A DNA stretch of 51,308 nucleotides. It comes from Bacillota bacterium (GTDB lineage Bacteria; Bacillota; Bacilli; Bu12). The notes beneath the pieces are model-generated. The model was not told the DNA's origin. It saw only the letters and a program-made list of their open reading frames with translations, and did no database searches. The stretch is from contig JADBKH010000015.1 in the NCBI GenBank assembly GCA_014896485.1, positions 1-51,308 on the forward strand, given 5' to 3'. The first letter of the stretch is position 1; each line of letters begins with the position of its first letter. This document shows, piece by piece, positions 2,719-14,983 of this stretch. A program made the position numbers and the translations under genes.

Positions 2719-3714
2719 TCATCCGAACGCTTTTGGAAGGAGAAAATCACCGACCTCAGTTCCGATGCCGCGCGCTCGTGCGGTTTGATAGATAGCATAA
2801 CCGGCGATCACATCTTGCAGTGCTTCACCGACTGACTTATAGAGGGTCATTTGGTCGTCCCTCGCGCGCCCTTCTGCTTGACCTGTAAGCAGTTCGCACA
2901 ACCGCACAACACGCGAACGGTCGTAGGTGTTGGCGGCCAGGGCAGCTGCGACATCACCGGATTCCCGCTCGATCTGTTCGGCTGGTGCGTCAGTGACAAG
3001 GAGATCGACGCGACGAAAAGTCTCTTCGTCGATCTCCCGCAAGCCCAGCATCGTCGATCCGATGGCATTCACATGTTGCCCCGGTTCTATCCACGAGCCG
3101 CGATACGCAATGTGCGCCTCGTGTCCGGTCGTGTTCGTCGCCACCACCACGATATCGGTTCCACCTACTGCCTCCTCAGGGCTGTCCACCGCCTCTATTT
3201 CCACCTGTAAGCGCTCGGCCATTTCCGCTGCAAAGCGTTGTCGTTTTTGGGCGTTGGGGCTGAATACGCGAACACGATCGACGGGGCGCACAACGCAAAC
3301 AGCCTCGAGATTGGTCCGTGCCTCCAATCCGGATCCGATGACGCCTACCCGATGCGCCTTTTGCCGAGCCAGGAGTCGCGTCGCCACCCCTGTCGCCGCC
3401 CCGGTTCGCAGCGCAGTCAAAAAATGGGCGTCCATCAGCGCAAGTAAGCTTCCTTCATGGGCATCGTAAACTGCGACCAGATATCGCCAAGATCCGCGGG
3501 GGGAACCGTGAAAAACCTTAAACCCCATTACACCACTTTCGGAAAGGACAACTGGCATAACACGAAAAACGCCTTCACCATTGGGAAGATTCATCCGCTC
3601 CGGCTGGACGACTTGTCCCCTACCTTCCTCTTTGGTTGCACGCTCAATGGCATCGACAAGGGTGGCCATGTCCACCGCAGCACGGACATCCGCATCAGAG
3701 AGAATGAGGGTCAT
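2719..3714 (-). CDS. Ornithine cyclodeaminase / mu-crystallin family protein
   Basis: 331 residues. The fold is shown by the substrate-binding Lys near 66 (VMGFKVF), RTGAATG near 103-109, the Rossmann loop GVIGSGLEA near 124-132 and the late QMTLYKSVG motif. Family members include ornithine cyclodeaminase, alanine dehydrogenase-like enzymes and reductases of cyclic imines such as 1-pyrroline-2-carboxylate. Its ATG overlaps the stop of the upstream lyase gene (ATGA at 3714-3711), so the two are probably translationally coupled and act in one pathway. Exact substrate not assignable from sequence. Confidence 0.88.
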   Translation of the reverse strand: MTLILSDADVRAAVDMATLVDAIERATKEEGRGQVVQPERMNLPNGEGVFRVMPVVLSESGVMGFKVFHGSPRGSWRYLVAVYDAHEGSLLALMDAHFLTALRTGAATGVATRLLARQKAHRVGVIGSGLEARTNLEAVCVVRPVDRVRVFSPNAQKRQRFAAEMAERLQVEIEAVDSPEEAVGGTDIVVVATNTTGHEAHIAYRGSWIEPGQHVNAIGSTMLGLREIDEETFRRVDLLVTDAPAEQIERESGDVAAALAANTYDRSRVVRLCELLTGQAEGRARDDQMTLYKSVGEALQDVIAGYAIYQTARARGIGTEVGDFLLPKAFG

Positions 3715-6092: not shown

Positions 6093-6221
6093 GAGGTAAC
6101 CCCCTTTCCATCCCTCCCTCAAGGACGCTAGATGGGGGCTCTATCGGCTGCGCACCCACGCTTGAGAGAAAGAATTCACACTTTTTGTTTTGATTTTTCA
6201 CCTTGTTTTTCTTGCTTGTCA

Positions 6222-6249
6222 TTGTTGCATGTGAGGTTTATCCTATTCA
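6222..6249 (+). promoter_or_regulatory. Candidate promoter of the regulator gene
   Basis: TTGTTG (6222-6227) and TATTCA (6244-6249) are spaced 16 bases apart in the AT-rich interval between the two divergent units. Found by eye; moderate match only. Confidence 0.35.
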
Positions 6250-6250
6250 A

Positions 6251-6264
6251 TGTGTAATCACACA
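6251..6264. promoter_or_regulatory. Inverted repeat, possible operator
   Basis: TGTGT-AATC-ACACA is a 5-bp inverted repeat just downstream of the candidate -10 and upstream of the regulator start, in the shared divergent region. It is a plausible binding site for the adjacent regulator; no experimental or comparative support is available here. Confidence 0.35.
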
Positions 6265-6283
6265 AAGAAATTGGTGGTATGTT

Positions 6284-7654
6284 ATGCAATTCAATAGTAT
6301 CTCTCCAAGAGAATGGCGCTCGTCCATCCGGGATACACCCCTGACACTCTTTCTGCAGGAGATCGCCAATTATGTCTGCACCATTGGTGGTTACGATTTC
6401 TCCTCTGTCCTGCTGCGTGATGAACATCTCAATTGCTTACGTATCCTTGGCGTAGCAAATCTTTCGATGGAATATGTCCAGCGGATCAATGAGGAGGATG
6501 CATTACAGCTTGAACAACCGGAGATAGGTTACGCACCGTCTACGATTGCTTATCTAGAGAAGCGTCCTGTCGCTATCCATGACGTCTTTGCGGACGATGA
6601 TTTCAGACCATGGGTAGCTGATGCGCAACGTGAAGGTTACCGTGCGCTTTTGTGCGTGCCCTTACTCATGGGCAGCGACGCCGTCGGCGTGCTTGACGTC
6701 TATCAACGGTCCGTCCATACCTTCACAGAGGAGGAGATTTCTTTCTTTACAGCCGTGGCTGGTCTGGCAGCTATGGCGGTTGAAGCGAAACAGACCACCG
6801 ATCGTCTTCAAGCATCCCTCGCCGCACTCCGCGATGCCAGAGAGCTGCATCGTCGGATGCTGAATGCGTCCGGACTGGATCAAGTTGGTCAAACGTTGAG
6901 CGACTTCCTGAATTGCTGTGTGGCGATTACAGATCCAAACGGCACGTGTCTGTGGTCCAATGCGAAATATGGCAAGATCACAGATCTCGGACAAGCGCTG
7001 GGCGCGGACTGGTTGCAGCATATGCGACAAGCCACCACAGGGGACGTGATCCTTTTTTCACCCTCCACACACCCAGAGCAAAAAAAGGAGGGGAAGGTCG
7101 CTGCAGAATGTCAAACCCACGCTCCCTCTTCAATGGTGCCACGGATACCGACACAGGCGGGAATTGCAATGTACGGTTCAGGTACTCCACAGGGCTACAT
7201 CATCGTCGATTTAGAGGAAAACATTGCCGAAGAGGCTTTACGCCTCGATCTGGAAGAAGCATCCCTGGTTGCTGCGCACATTCTCCTCGAAGAACGACGA
7301 CGTCTCGATGTCTTGCACCAGTCACAGGAAGAGCTTGCGTCTGATATTCTTCACGGACGTTTCCGCAATCGAGAGTCGATTTTGGCACGGGCCGCCAATC
7401 TGGGGTTTGACGTCCACAGTCCGCATGCAGTCGTCGTTCTGCCTCAACAAAAAGAGATCGAAAGGGCCTTACAGCGCCTAAACCTTCAACCGCATCCCAG
7501 CCCGCTGATTAGCCATGAAGGACGTGAAAGCCTGGTACTCCTCGTGCTGGTGTTGGCCCGCGTGCCCTATCCGCGCACTGATCAAACGGCTCCCCCTTCA
7601 GCCGTAGTGCACGTTTGGGAGTGGGGAGCCGGTTTGCCCGGGGCAGGTACGTAG
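6284..7654 (+). CDS. GAF-domain PucR/CdaR-like regulator, C-terminus replaced
   Basis: Start ATG 6284 (MQFNSIS); upstream in-frame residues look non-coding. Residues about 10-160 form a GAF domain, followed by a coiled linker and a PucR-type middle region (EELASDILHGRF, ILARAANLGFD). The family normally ends in an HTH_30 DNA-binding domain. Here genuine sequence stops at 7541 (HEGRESLVLL). The remaining codons (LVLARVPYP onward to the stop at 7654) come from an inverted copy of the region upstream of purA, including the C-terminus of the 10076-10660 gene. The DNA-binding domain is therefore missing in this sequence, probably through misassembly. Divergent position suggests it controls the permease operon. 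Confidence 0.8.
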   Translation: MQFNSISPREWRSSIRDTPLTLFLQEIANYVCTIGGYDFSSVLLRDEHLNCLRILGVANLSMEYVQRINEEDALQLEQPEIGYAPSTIAYLEKRPVAIHDVFADDDFRPWVADAQREGYRALLCVPLLMGSDAVGVLDVYQRSVHTFTEEEISFFTAVAGLAAMAVEAKQTTDRLQASLAALRDARELHRRMLNASGLDQVGQTLSDFLNCCVAITDPNGTCLWSNAKYGKITDLGQALGADWLQHMRQATTGDVILFSPSTHPEQKKEGKVAAECQTHAPSSMVPRIPTQAGIAMYGSGTPQGYIIVDLEENIAEEALRLDLEEASLVAAHILLEERRRLDVLHQSQEELASDILHGRFRNRESILARAANLGFDVHSPHAVVVLPQQKEIERALQRLNLQPHPSPLISHEGRESLVLLVLVLARVPYPRTDQTAPPSAVVHVWEWGAGLPGAGT

Positions 7655-8238
7655 AGATGAATGCGTAGTCGCGCAGACTCAGAAAGGGGCCCAGACTGCC
7701 GGGCATTGTGGTCATAGGCACGCAGTGGGGCGATGAGGGTGAGAAAAGTCACCGATTATCTGGCCGAGCGTTCGGATGGTGGTGCGCTACCAAGGTGGAA
7801 GCAACGCCGGCCATACCGTCTGGATCGCCGAACGCTTTGCCCATGCACCTCGTGCCCACAGGCATCTTTTATCGCGAGACGCGTTGTGTGATGGGCAATG
7901 GAATGGTGATCGACCAATCGCCTTTGCCGAAAGCTGGATACTTGCACGCACGCGGTGTTTCGACGAAACCTCTATCTCTCCGATCGGGCGCACCGCACGG
8001 TCTTCCCCTACCACCAGGCGCTCGACGAAGTGAGCCGAAGAGCAGGGCTTGGGGCCAAACAAGATCAGTACAACCCTGCGCGGTATTGGTCCCGCCTATA
8101 TGGACAAGGCTGCCCAGTGCATTCCGCGTCGCCGACTTGTTTGAGCCAAGGCGGTTTTGCCAATCTACTGCACCGCAACGTAGAAGAGAAAAATCGTCTA
8201 TTGCGGGAGCTTTACCATCGTGAAGGCTTCGACGAGGC

Positions 8239-8310
8239 GGTGGGAACGGGATTCGAACCCGTGAATCGCGGTTTTGCAGACCGCTGCGTTAGCCACTTCG
8301 CCATCCCACC
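8239..8310 (-). tRNA. tRNA-Cys (GCA)
   Basis: Reading leftward from 8310: acceptor GGTGGGA pairs with TCCCACC; the anticodon loop CTGCAAA gives GCA; the T arm is ACGGG-TTCGAAT-CCCGT. All arms close. No CCA is encoded. It is flanked on one side directly by inverted purA sequence and on the other, after 4 bases, by tRNA-Asp, so its true genomic surroundings are uncertain. Confidence 0.9.
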
Positions 8311-8314
8311 GCGA

Positions 8315-8391
8315 TGGCGGAGCCAACGGGATTCGAACCCGTGTTCTCCTGCGTGACAGGCAGGCGTGTTGGGCCTCTACACCATGGCTCC
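8315..8391 (-). tRNA. tRNA-Asp (GTC)
   Basis: From 8391 leftward: acceptor GGAGCCA pairs with TGGCTCC; the anticodon loop CTGTCAC gives GTC; the T arm is ACGGG-TTCGAAT-CCCGT, and 3' GCCA is encoded. The mosaic purA sequence begins exactly at its 5' boundary (8392), so no promoter of its own is visible. tRNA-Glu, tRNA-Asp and tRNA-Cys together resemble the tRNA cluster that follows purA in Bacillus. Confidence 0.92.
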
Positions 8392-8502
8392 GTAACGCAT
8401 CCAATCCCGTGGCTGGCGGCGTCTGTATTGGAGCGGGTGTGGGACCGGCCGGATCGGACGGTGATCGGCGTGGTCAGGCCGTATACCACCCGGGTTGGCG
8501 AT

Positions 8503-8563
8503 GGATTCGAACCCCTGTTACCGCCGTGAAAGGGCGGTGTCTTAACCACTTGACCACGGGGTC
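8503..8563 (-). tRNA. tRNA-Glu (TTC), 3' end missing
   Basis: From 8563 leftward: 5' acceptor GACCCCG, D arm, anticodon loop CTTTCAC (TTC) and the first part of the T arm. At about 8503 the sequence switches to inverted purA (GATGGCG read leftward as CGCCATC), so the 3' T-stem strand and acceptor strand are absent. A functional tRNA-Glu is essential in most genomes; the truncation marks a false junction more likely than a real loss. Confidence 0.85.
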
Positions 8564-8648: not shown

Positions 8649-9953
8649 TCACCGGTGGCTTTTGCCGAAACCAGGCACTTCACGAAGCTGGAAGGTCTGG
8701 GTGCGGTCAGGACCTGCCGAGAGAATGGCGACCGGAATGCCGCACGTGCGCTCAATCGTCTGAAGATACTGCTTGGCTTCCTGCGGCAACTCCCGGTAAT
8801 CCCGAATCTCGTCGAGCGGCTCCTTCCAACCGGGCAACGTCTCATAGACAGGCTGACACTGCTGCAGCTGCTCCAAGCTGGCCGGCAGGTGCTCGACCCG
8901 CTTGCCATCGAGCTCGTAGGCCGTACAGACCCGCACCTCGTCTAACCCACTGAGCACGTCGAGCAAGGTGATGGCCAATGCGGAAACCCCAGAGACACGG
9001 GCAGCATGGCGCACCACGACCGTATCGAGCCAGCCCACCCGACGGGGGCGCCCTGTCGTCGTCCCATACTCGTGCCCTACTTCCCGTATCTGGTCGCCGA
9101 TCGGGTCGTTGAGTTCGGTGGGAAATGGGCCATCGCCAACCCGGGTGGTATACGCCTTGACCACGCCGATCACCGTCTCGATCCGGGTCGGCCCCACACC
9201 CGCTCCAATACAGACGCCGCCAGCCACGGGATTGGATGCGGTTACATAGGGATAGGTACCGTGGTCGATGTCGAGCATCGTCCCTTGCGCCCCTTCAAAG
9301 AGTACCGTCTCCCCCGCATCCAGCGCTTCATTGACCAACACCGAAGTGTCGGTGACAAAGGGACGCATCCGCTCGGCCAAATCGAGATACTGGGTGCGGA
9401 TGGCGGCCTCGTCGAAGCCTTCACGATGGTAAAGCTCCCGCAATAGACGATTTTTCTCTTCTACGTTGCGGTGCAGTAGATTGGCAAACCGCCTTGGCTC
9501 AAACAAGTCGGCGACGCGGATACCGGTCCGGGCAGCCTTGTCCATATAGGCGGGACCAATACCGCGCAGGGTTGTACCGATCTTGTCGGTCCCCAAGCCC
9601 TGCTCGGCCACCTCGTCGAGCGCCTGGTGGTAGGGGAAGACCAGGTGCGCCCGATCGGAGAGATAGAGGTTTTCCGTCGAAACACCGCGTGCGTGCAAGT
9701 AATCCAGCTCTTCGGCAAAGGCGACCGGGTCGATCACCATTCCATTGCCCATCACACAACGCGTCTCGCGATAAAAGATGCCTGTGGGCACGAGGTGCAG
9801 GGCAAAGCGTTGCCCGGCGATCCAGACGGTATGGCCGGCGTTGCTTCCACCTTGGTAGCGCACCACCATATCCGAACGCTCGGCCAGATAATCGGTGACT
9901 TTTCCCTTGCCCTCATCGCCCCACTGCGTGCCTATGACCACAATGCCCGGCAA
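8649..9953 (-). CDS. purA: Adenylosuccinate synthetase
   Basis: 434 residues, full family length. It condenses IMP with aspartate using GTP, the first step from IMP to AMP. Start TTG at 9953 gives the standard N-terminus ([17 protein letters not shown]) and follows an AAAGGGG site. Motifs: the GDEGKGK phosphate loop near 12-18, QGGSNAGHT near 35, [11 protein letters not shown] near 125, [12 protein letters not shown] near 300. Leftward, downstream of dnaB and its neighbour, and followed by tRNAs as in Bacillus. Parts of this gene recur inverted at 7697-8504. Confidence 0.97.
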
Positions 9954-10075
9954 AGTCTGGGCCCCTTTCTGAGTCTGCGCGACTACGCATTCATTCTACG
10001 TGTGGACCTGCCCCAAAGGCAAACCGGCTCCCCACTCCCCCAAACGTGCACTACGGCTGAAGGGGAGCCGTTTGA

Positions 10076-10660
10076 TCAGTGCGGATAGGGCACGCGGGCC
10101 AACACCAGCACGATGCGTCCGGGATCGGTCAGCGCCTTCTTTTCCTGCGATGCCGTCAGGCCAAACGGATAGAGGCCTTGGGTATTGCCCGCATGCAAGT
10201 CAATGTAGGCCGGTCCAAACCACCAGGGCTTAAACAACAGGTAGAGCGTTGGCGTTCCAGGGAGGGGCGTCGATGAAGGAACGCCCGAAACGACCGCAAG
10301 CTTGGACCAGAGGGCTAGCAGTACGGCAAGCACCAGGACCGCCACCCGCCGGATCCGCCGCTCCCGCTGATCCTGCCGTGCCTCACGCTCCGCTTGATGT
10401 ATCGCCAACCGCGGCGGGAGGGTCATTGTCTCGAAATCGCGCGGATCAGAAGCATCGGATTCCTCTGTTGGTACAACAGGGAGAACCCAAGTGTCGGAAT
10501 CTTGTGAATCTATATCTGTGGGAGCGGCTGGAGCTGGCGTTGGTGCTACGGTCGCAGCGGTCTCAGAGAAACCATGTGCTGCTGCCCATTCACGCAGGAA
10601 ATCCTCTTCAAGCAACGGGAAGGGATCGTTTTCGCTACGTGTTTCTCCCTTTTCTGCCAT
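10076..10660 (-). CDS. Uncharacterised single-span membrane protein
   Basis: About 194 residues starting ATG 10660 after a GGAAGGG-rich stretch, 4 bases beyond the dnaB stop, so co-transcribed with dnaB. Residues about 1-95 are acidic and Pro/Asp-rich and presumably cytoplasmic. A basic patch (REARQDQRERRIRR) precedes one membrane helix (VAVLVLAVLLALW), and about 70 residues follow on the outside (FGPAYIDLHAGNTQG). No family recognised. Its last codons reappear inverted at 7542. Confidence 0.65.
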   Translation of the reverse strand: MAEKGETRSENDPFPLLEEDFLREWAAAHGFSETAATVAPTPAPAAPTDIDSQDSDTWVLPVVPTEESDASDPRDFETMTLPPRLAIHQAEREARQDQRERRIRRVAVLVLAVLLALWSKLAVVSGVPSSTPLPGTPTLYLLFKPWWFGPAYIDLHAGNTQGLYPFGLTASQEKKALTDPGRIVLVLARVPYPH

Positions 10661-13801: not shown

Positions 13802-14029
13802 CTATTCGGTTGTAAACGGCAACAGTGCCATGATCCGCGCCCGCTTGATTGCCCGTGTCACTTGGCGTTGATGCCGGGCACAGTTTCCCGTGATCCGCCG
13901 GGGCAATATCTTGCCCCGTTCGGTCGTATACCGCCGAAGTCGCTCGAAGTCTTTGTAGTCGACTTCGCGGACGTGATCGACGCAGAACTGGCAGACCTTT
14001 TTGCGCTTTCCGCGCCGGTTGCGTGGCAT
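13802..14029 (-). CDS. rpsR: Small ribosomal subunit protein bS18
   Basis: 75 residues. Signature [25 protein letters not shown] followed by [28 protein letters not shown]. Cys residues in CQFC and NCARH suggest the zinc-type variant. Third member of the rpsF-ssb-rpsR operon, 16 bases after ssb. Confidence 0.97.
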
Positions 14030-14045
14030 TGGTTTCCCCTTTCAA

Positions 14046-14519
14046 TCAAAACGGAATATCGTCTTCAAAATCCAAGGTCTCATCCTCGGGTTCAAACGCA
14101 TCGTCGGGCAGGGGCGCGTTGTTCGCTTCGGGACGTTGCGGCTGTGCCGATGCACTGCGCCCTGAGAACGAAGGGGCCGATTCTGGAGCTGGTCCACTGC
14201 CAGCACGATCGAGAAACTCGACGCGGTTGGCCCGAATCTCTGTCACCCAGGCGCGAGAACCGTCTTGGCGATCGTAGCTGCGCACTTGAATACGCCCTTC
14301 TACCGCCACCAGCCTTCCCTTGCTTAAATAGTGCGCACACGTCTCTGCCTGTTTGTTCCAGGTCACGATCGGCAGAAAATCTGTCTGACGCTCCCCCTGG
14401 ACATTGCTCCCTTGTCGGTCTACTGCCAACGTGAAAGTAGCGACTGGCGTCCCTTGCGGGGTATACCGAAGTTCTGGATCTTTGGTGAGCCGACCGATCA
14501 GAATCGCCTTGTTCAACAC
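14046..14519 (-). CDS. ssb: Single-stranded DNA-binding protein
   Basis: 157 residues. The OB fold begins MLNKAILIGRLTKDPELRYTP; a Pro/Ser/Gln-rich linker follows about residue 110; the acidic tip is DFEDDIPF, the docking peptide for replication and repair partners. It coats single-stranded DNA at forks. Classic position between rpsF and rpsR. Confidence 0.97.
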   Translation of the reverse strand: MLNKAILIGRLTKDPELRYTPQGTPVATFTLAVDRQGSNVQGERQTDFLPIVTWNKQAETCAHYLSKGRLVAVEGRIQVRSYDRQDGSRAWVTEIRANRVEFLDRAGSGPAPESAPSFSGRSASAQPQRPEANNAPLPDDAFEPEDETLDFEDDIPF

Positions 14520-14855: not shown

Positions 14856-14983
14856 CGAGGTACCCCCCTTCTGGTCATTGGACTTCTGCCCGTCTGCAGA
14901 AGTAAGGAGGAGAAACCGTCTCCATCGATAGCAAATCAGCATTATACAATGTATAGATCAGGCTGACAAGCGAAGGGACAGAA

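Follow-up and report, generated by a model that had tools for sequence, protein, structure and literature searches.

Mirror-image purA sequence beside purA in a Bacillota genome assembly as a probable fold-back filling of assembly gaps

The window, a stretch of 51,308 nucleotides from a Bacillota bacterium (assembly GCA_014896485.1, contig JADBKH010000015.1), carries beside purA a segment of 963 bases (7542-8504) that contains a noisy mirror-image copy of purA. This mirror copy is not a biological feature. The segment is almost certainly an assembly artefact, which probably arose when gaps were filled with fold-back sequence. The features concerned are the following.

6203-7541, plus strand: 5′ part of a GAF and GGDEF-like (PucR/CdaR-type) regulator gene, genuine, 446 codons, cut in GGDEF_2 with HTH_30 missing
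7542-8238, minus strand: filler 1, noisy inverted copy of 9406-10113, taken as false sequence
8239-8391, minus strand: block of tRNA-Cys(GCA) and tRNA-Asp(GTC), error-free, identical to G000:C64:62831-62983
8392-8504, minus strand: filler 2, noisy inverted copy of 9130-9245 (purA), taken as false sequence at the position of the tRNA-Asp/tRNA-Glu spacer
8505-8563, minus strand: tRNA-Glu(UUC), partial, without the 3′ side of the T-arm and acceptor stem
8649-9953, minus strand: purA (adenylosuccinate synthase), intact and genuine, template of the mirrored copy
9130-9245, minus strand: source of filler 2, genuine, mirrored in 8392-8504
9406-10113, minus strand: source of filler 1, genuine, mirrored in 7542-8238

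Global alignment of filler 1 (697 bases) with the reverse complement of its source (708 bases), which covers the end of the preceding gene, the spacer between that gene and purA, and the first half of purA, gave 670 matches, 11 substitutions, 13 deletion events (27 bases) and 10 insertion events (16 bases). Filler 2 (113 bases) aligned globally with the reverse complement of 9130-9245 (116 bases) with 109 matches, 4 substitutions and 3 one-base deletions. When both fillers are pooled, 779 of 840 columns match, and the differences consist of 15 substitutions and 26 indel events amounting to 46 bases. The BLAST E value of the mirror match is 0, which excludes chance. The sums of the mirrored coordinates are 17655, 17644, 17637 and 17634; this drift reflects net indels only, and the two fillers and the tRNA block between them are thus in register on a single axis, which lies near 8822 within purA. 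A preliminary description of this DNA had given the same two inverted pairs, a single symmetry centre at about 8817-8828 and differences made up mainly of short indels, and the alignments bear out all three points. The substitutions do not favour third codon positions. Frameshifts are confined to the mirrored copy, and purA itself is intact, with a full-length match to Pfam PF00709 (E 6e-186) and a match to NCBIfam PRK01117.

The tRNA block of 153 bases takes the place of 160 bases of mirrored purA (9405-9246), as described earlier. Its match to contig C64 extends to 155 of 156 positions by BLAST, with the single mismatch outside the block, and the C64 copy runs on into the discriminator and CCA of tRNA-Cys, both of which are absent from the tRNA-Cys of the window, a point that the preliminary description did not include. 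The limits of the block coincide exactly with the end of the C64 identity, as for a repeat node. The switches that the preliminary description placed on or near tRNA boundaries are accordingly the limits of an exact shared repeat, which is a break point expected of short-read contigs. Separately, we observed contigs that begin or end beside tRNA genes (G000:C45:22-97; G000:C30:27342-27413, with the contig end at 27487), as when assemblies break at repeats.

The loss of the 3′ end of tRNA-Glu, also described earlier, occurs at 8504/8505, inside the T-arm. ARAGORN made no call for the cut gene, and its Rfam tRNA match (8499-8558, 34.7 bits) covers model positions 6-65 only. The genome gave 39 tRNA matches, with no second tRNA-Glu(UUC) among them and tRNA-Glu(CUC) as the sole other tRNA-Glu; the glutamate codons in eight genes of the window are 104 GAA versus 106 GAG. 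The tRNA search of the assembly also did not find tRNA-Phe, tRNA-Ile or tRNA-Ala-UGC, while tRNA-Tyr is present on contig C5. Because other tRNAs are missing from the assembly too, the single tRNA-Glu(UUC) supports an artefact and is no proof alone.

The gene order was compared with relatives that are all from outside the genus and family of the source organism. In two of them (L168 and L170), tRNA-Lys, tRNA-Glu and tRNA-Asp come after purA in that order and on its strand, with a Glu–Asp spacer of 74 bp in L168 and 114 bp in L170; the filler at this position in the window is 113 bp long. The order purA, tRNA-Glu, tRNA-Asp is common to the window and these two relatives, so that the tRNA genes probably belong at this locus, with the mirrored purA pieces being intrusive. 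The comparison had been proposed in the preliminary description, and its outcome, purA-Lys-Glu-(74-114 bp)-Asp, puts filler 2 in a normal spacer position. The dnaB gene is close to purA in the window and in five relatives. The regulator and its neighbour were sought beside purA in the relatives, with no match on that side. The cluster at G030:C4 was considered as a native Cys-Asp-Glu cluster; ARAGORN gave a different cluster there, and it was replaced by L168 and L170.

At the other end of the segment, the genuine sequence of the regulator gene breaks off after 7541, a cut that was absent from the preliminary description. Pfam matched the GAF domain and positions 4-56 of the GGDEF_2 profile, and the cut corresponds to position 56 of its 116 positions. 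An HTH_30 search of the genome did not find the missing 3′ end elsewhere, the two good matches belonging to other proteins. The better homologues of the regulator are mostly open frames of 627-666 aa, which suggests that about 555-615 bp are missing here. Filler 1, at 697 bp, is a near-equal replacement for this length plus a short spacer.

The deposited sequence does contain an inverted copy, and insertions are common at tRNA genes. These points would suit a history in which the purA region was truly duplicated in inverted orientation, the copy decayed to a pseudogene, tRNA-Cys and tRNA-Asp were inserted, and the regulator and tRNA-Glu were truncated. We consider such a history very improbable: the indels exceed the substitutions, the substitutions show no bias towards third codon positions, an equal length has been replaced with nothing added, and the sole tRNA-Glu(UUC) found would have been broken.

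For the artefact, we propose that the true order is the rest of the regulator, tRNA-Cys, tRNA-Asp, a short spacer, tRNA-Glu and purA. Accurate contigs would have been placed at their true distances, and the gaps at 7542-8238 and 8392-8504 would have been closed with one or more error-rich fold-back (palindromic) reads turning near 8822 in purA. True spacing of the genuine pieces (up to 7541, the 153-base tRNA block, and from 8505 onward) would give one axis for all mirrored pieces. We infer a long read as the source and a hybrid or gap-filling step as its way into the assembly.

The preliminary description favoured a fold-back read blended with true sequence in the consensus. Its fold-back origin is upheld by the indel-rich noise, the axis, the equal length, the damage to the regulator and to tRNA-Glu, and is confirmed by an independent second case in an RNase E/G gene described below. 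Blending of true and fold-back reads, a variant of the artefact, would account for in-register pieces that alternate between two sources, and we allow it a modest chance. However, the switches are sharp, and errors run all through the noisy pieces but are absent from the genuine ones, which makes gap filling between accurate contigs the likelier course, and the exact two-copy repeat in the tRNA block is where a short-read contig is expected to break. In another variant, a fold-back molecule made before sequencing, for instance a chimera from whole-genome amplification or a rearrangement confined to a few cells, would have been assembled as genome. Palindromic molecules arise in amplification (PMC6218980) and are consistent with the mirrored geometry, but the base noise and the in-register return to true sequence would be left unexplained, and we regard this variant as unlikely.

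Other mirror fills in the genome, which were absent from the preliminary description, were sought by scanning about 1.50 of 2.17 Mb for inverted copies within one stretch, with minimum values of 40 bp and 85% identity. Besides the pair in the window, it yielded two inverted pairs, on contigs C13 and C12 (three in total in about 1.50 Mb). On C13, positions 14679-14889 of L191 (G000:C13:60001-80000) are a noisy inverted copy of 13912-14130 at 90.6%, with 16 gap bases versus 5 mismatches. The host gene encodes RNase E/G (L191 13799-15483), and the source is the gene's own 5′ part. The reading frame is good to 14677 and resumes at 14908, with 230 bp between; the corresponding distance is 225 bp in five of seven relatives and 237 bp in the other two (for three minus-strand relatives, it was taken as the absolute value of the computed figure minus 2). 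Where the catalytic core of RNase E/G should be, the assembly carries the gene's own 5′ part in reverse, at almost the same length. There is no tRNA nearby.

The block on C12 is 52 bp long (C12:5269-5320; L188, G000:C12:1-20000) and matches the reverse complement of C12:7899-7950 exactly. It sits in a GH31 gene, at a change of the reading frame, and is probably a third artefact of the same kind; it is graded only as probable because the C-terminal part of GH31 is too divergent to place in the relatives. Apart from the inverted pairs, direct repeats of 90-100% identity were observed at L208 (G000:C14) 1-347 and 7527-7873, at L225 (G000:C37) 1-55 and 127-181, and at L215 (G000:C22) 2172-2235 and 3410-3473. 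Two of these three are at contig starts; the repeats may mark assembly or repeat boundaries.

The recurrence of the same error type elsewhere in the genome argues for an artefact and not for biology. An equal-length replacement of the RNase E/G core is not expected from natural duplication, and together with the indel excess and the equal-length replacement near purA it supports the earlier judgement that a real inverted duplication with tRNA insertions is the less likely explanation. A real cellular process that replaces gene stretches with inverted neighbouring DNA at two or more loci is hardly credible. As expected for fold-back artefacts, a neighbouring sequence is copied in inverted form on one axis, and indels are at least as numerous as substitutions in both cases. 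As expected for wrong gap fills, the replacement is of near-equal length and recurs at unrelated loci. A natural inverted duplication would show divergence mostly by substitution and a copy added to an intact locus, neither of which was found.

The significance of these observations is limited to data quality. The deposited assembly is wrong for the end of the regulator, the tRNA-Glu(UUC) gene and the RNase E/G catalytic core, and automatic annotation could wrongly report a pseudogene of purA, the regulator as truncated and the RNase as split. Searching for inverted copies that lie close to their source and contain many indels is a simple way to detect such errors.

In nanopore genomic data, about 0.55-0.6% of the reads are fold-back reads (PMC12870357), and palindromic molecules have been documented after whole-genome amplification (PMC6218980). 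The case in the window resembles these long-read artefacts (PMC12870357; PMC6218980) in having a segment with its own reverse complement, one turning point and single-molecule noise. It differs from them in that it stands in an assembled genome, is present as patches only, and has its turning point, at about 8822, under true sequence. When error-prone reads are used to close gaps, the inserted sequence is often wrong (PMC8848313). Likewise, a gap of about the right length would here have been wrongly filled, and base accuracy jumps at the junctions, whereas the filler in the window is peculiar in being the reverse complement of a neighbouring gene. Natural inverted duplications and template-switch mutations also place an inverted copy near its source, but the present case differs from them in its indel-dominated noise, the equal-length replacement, the damage to important genes and the unrelated loci that are hit.
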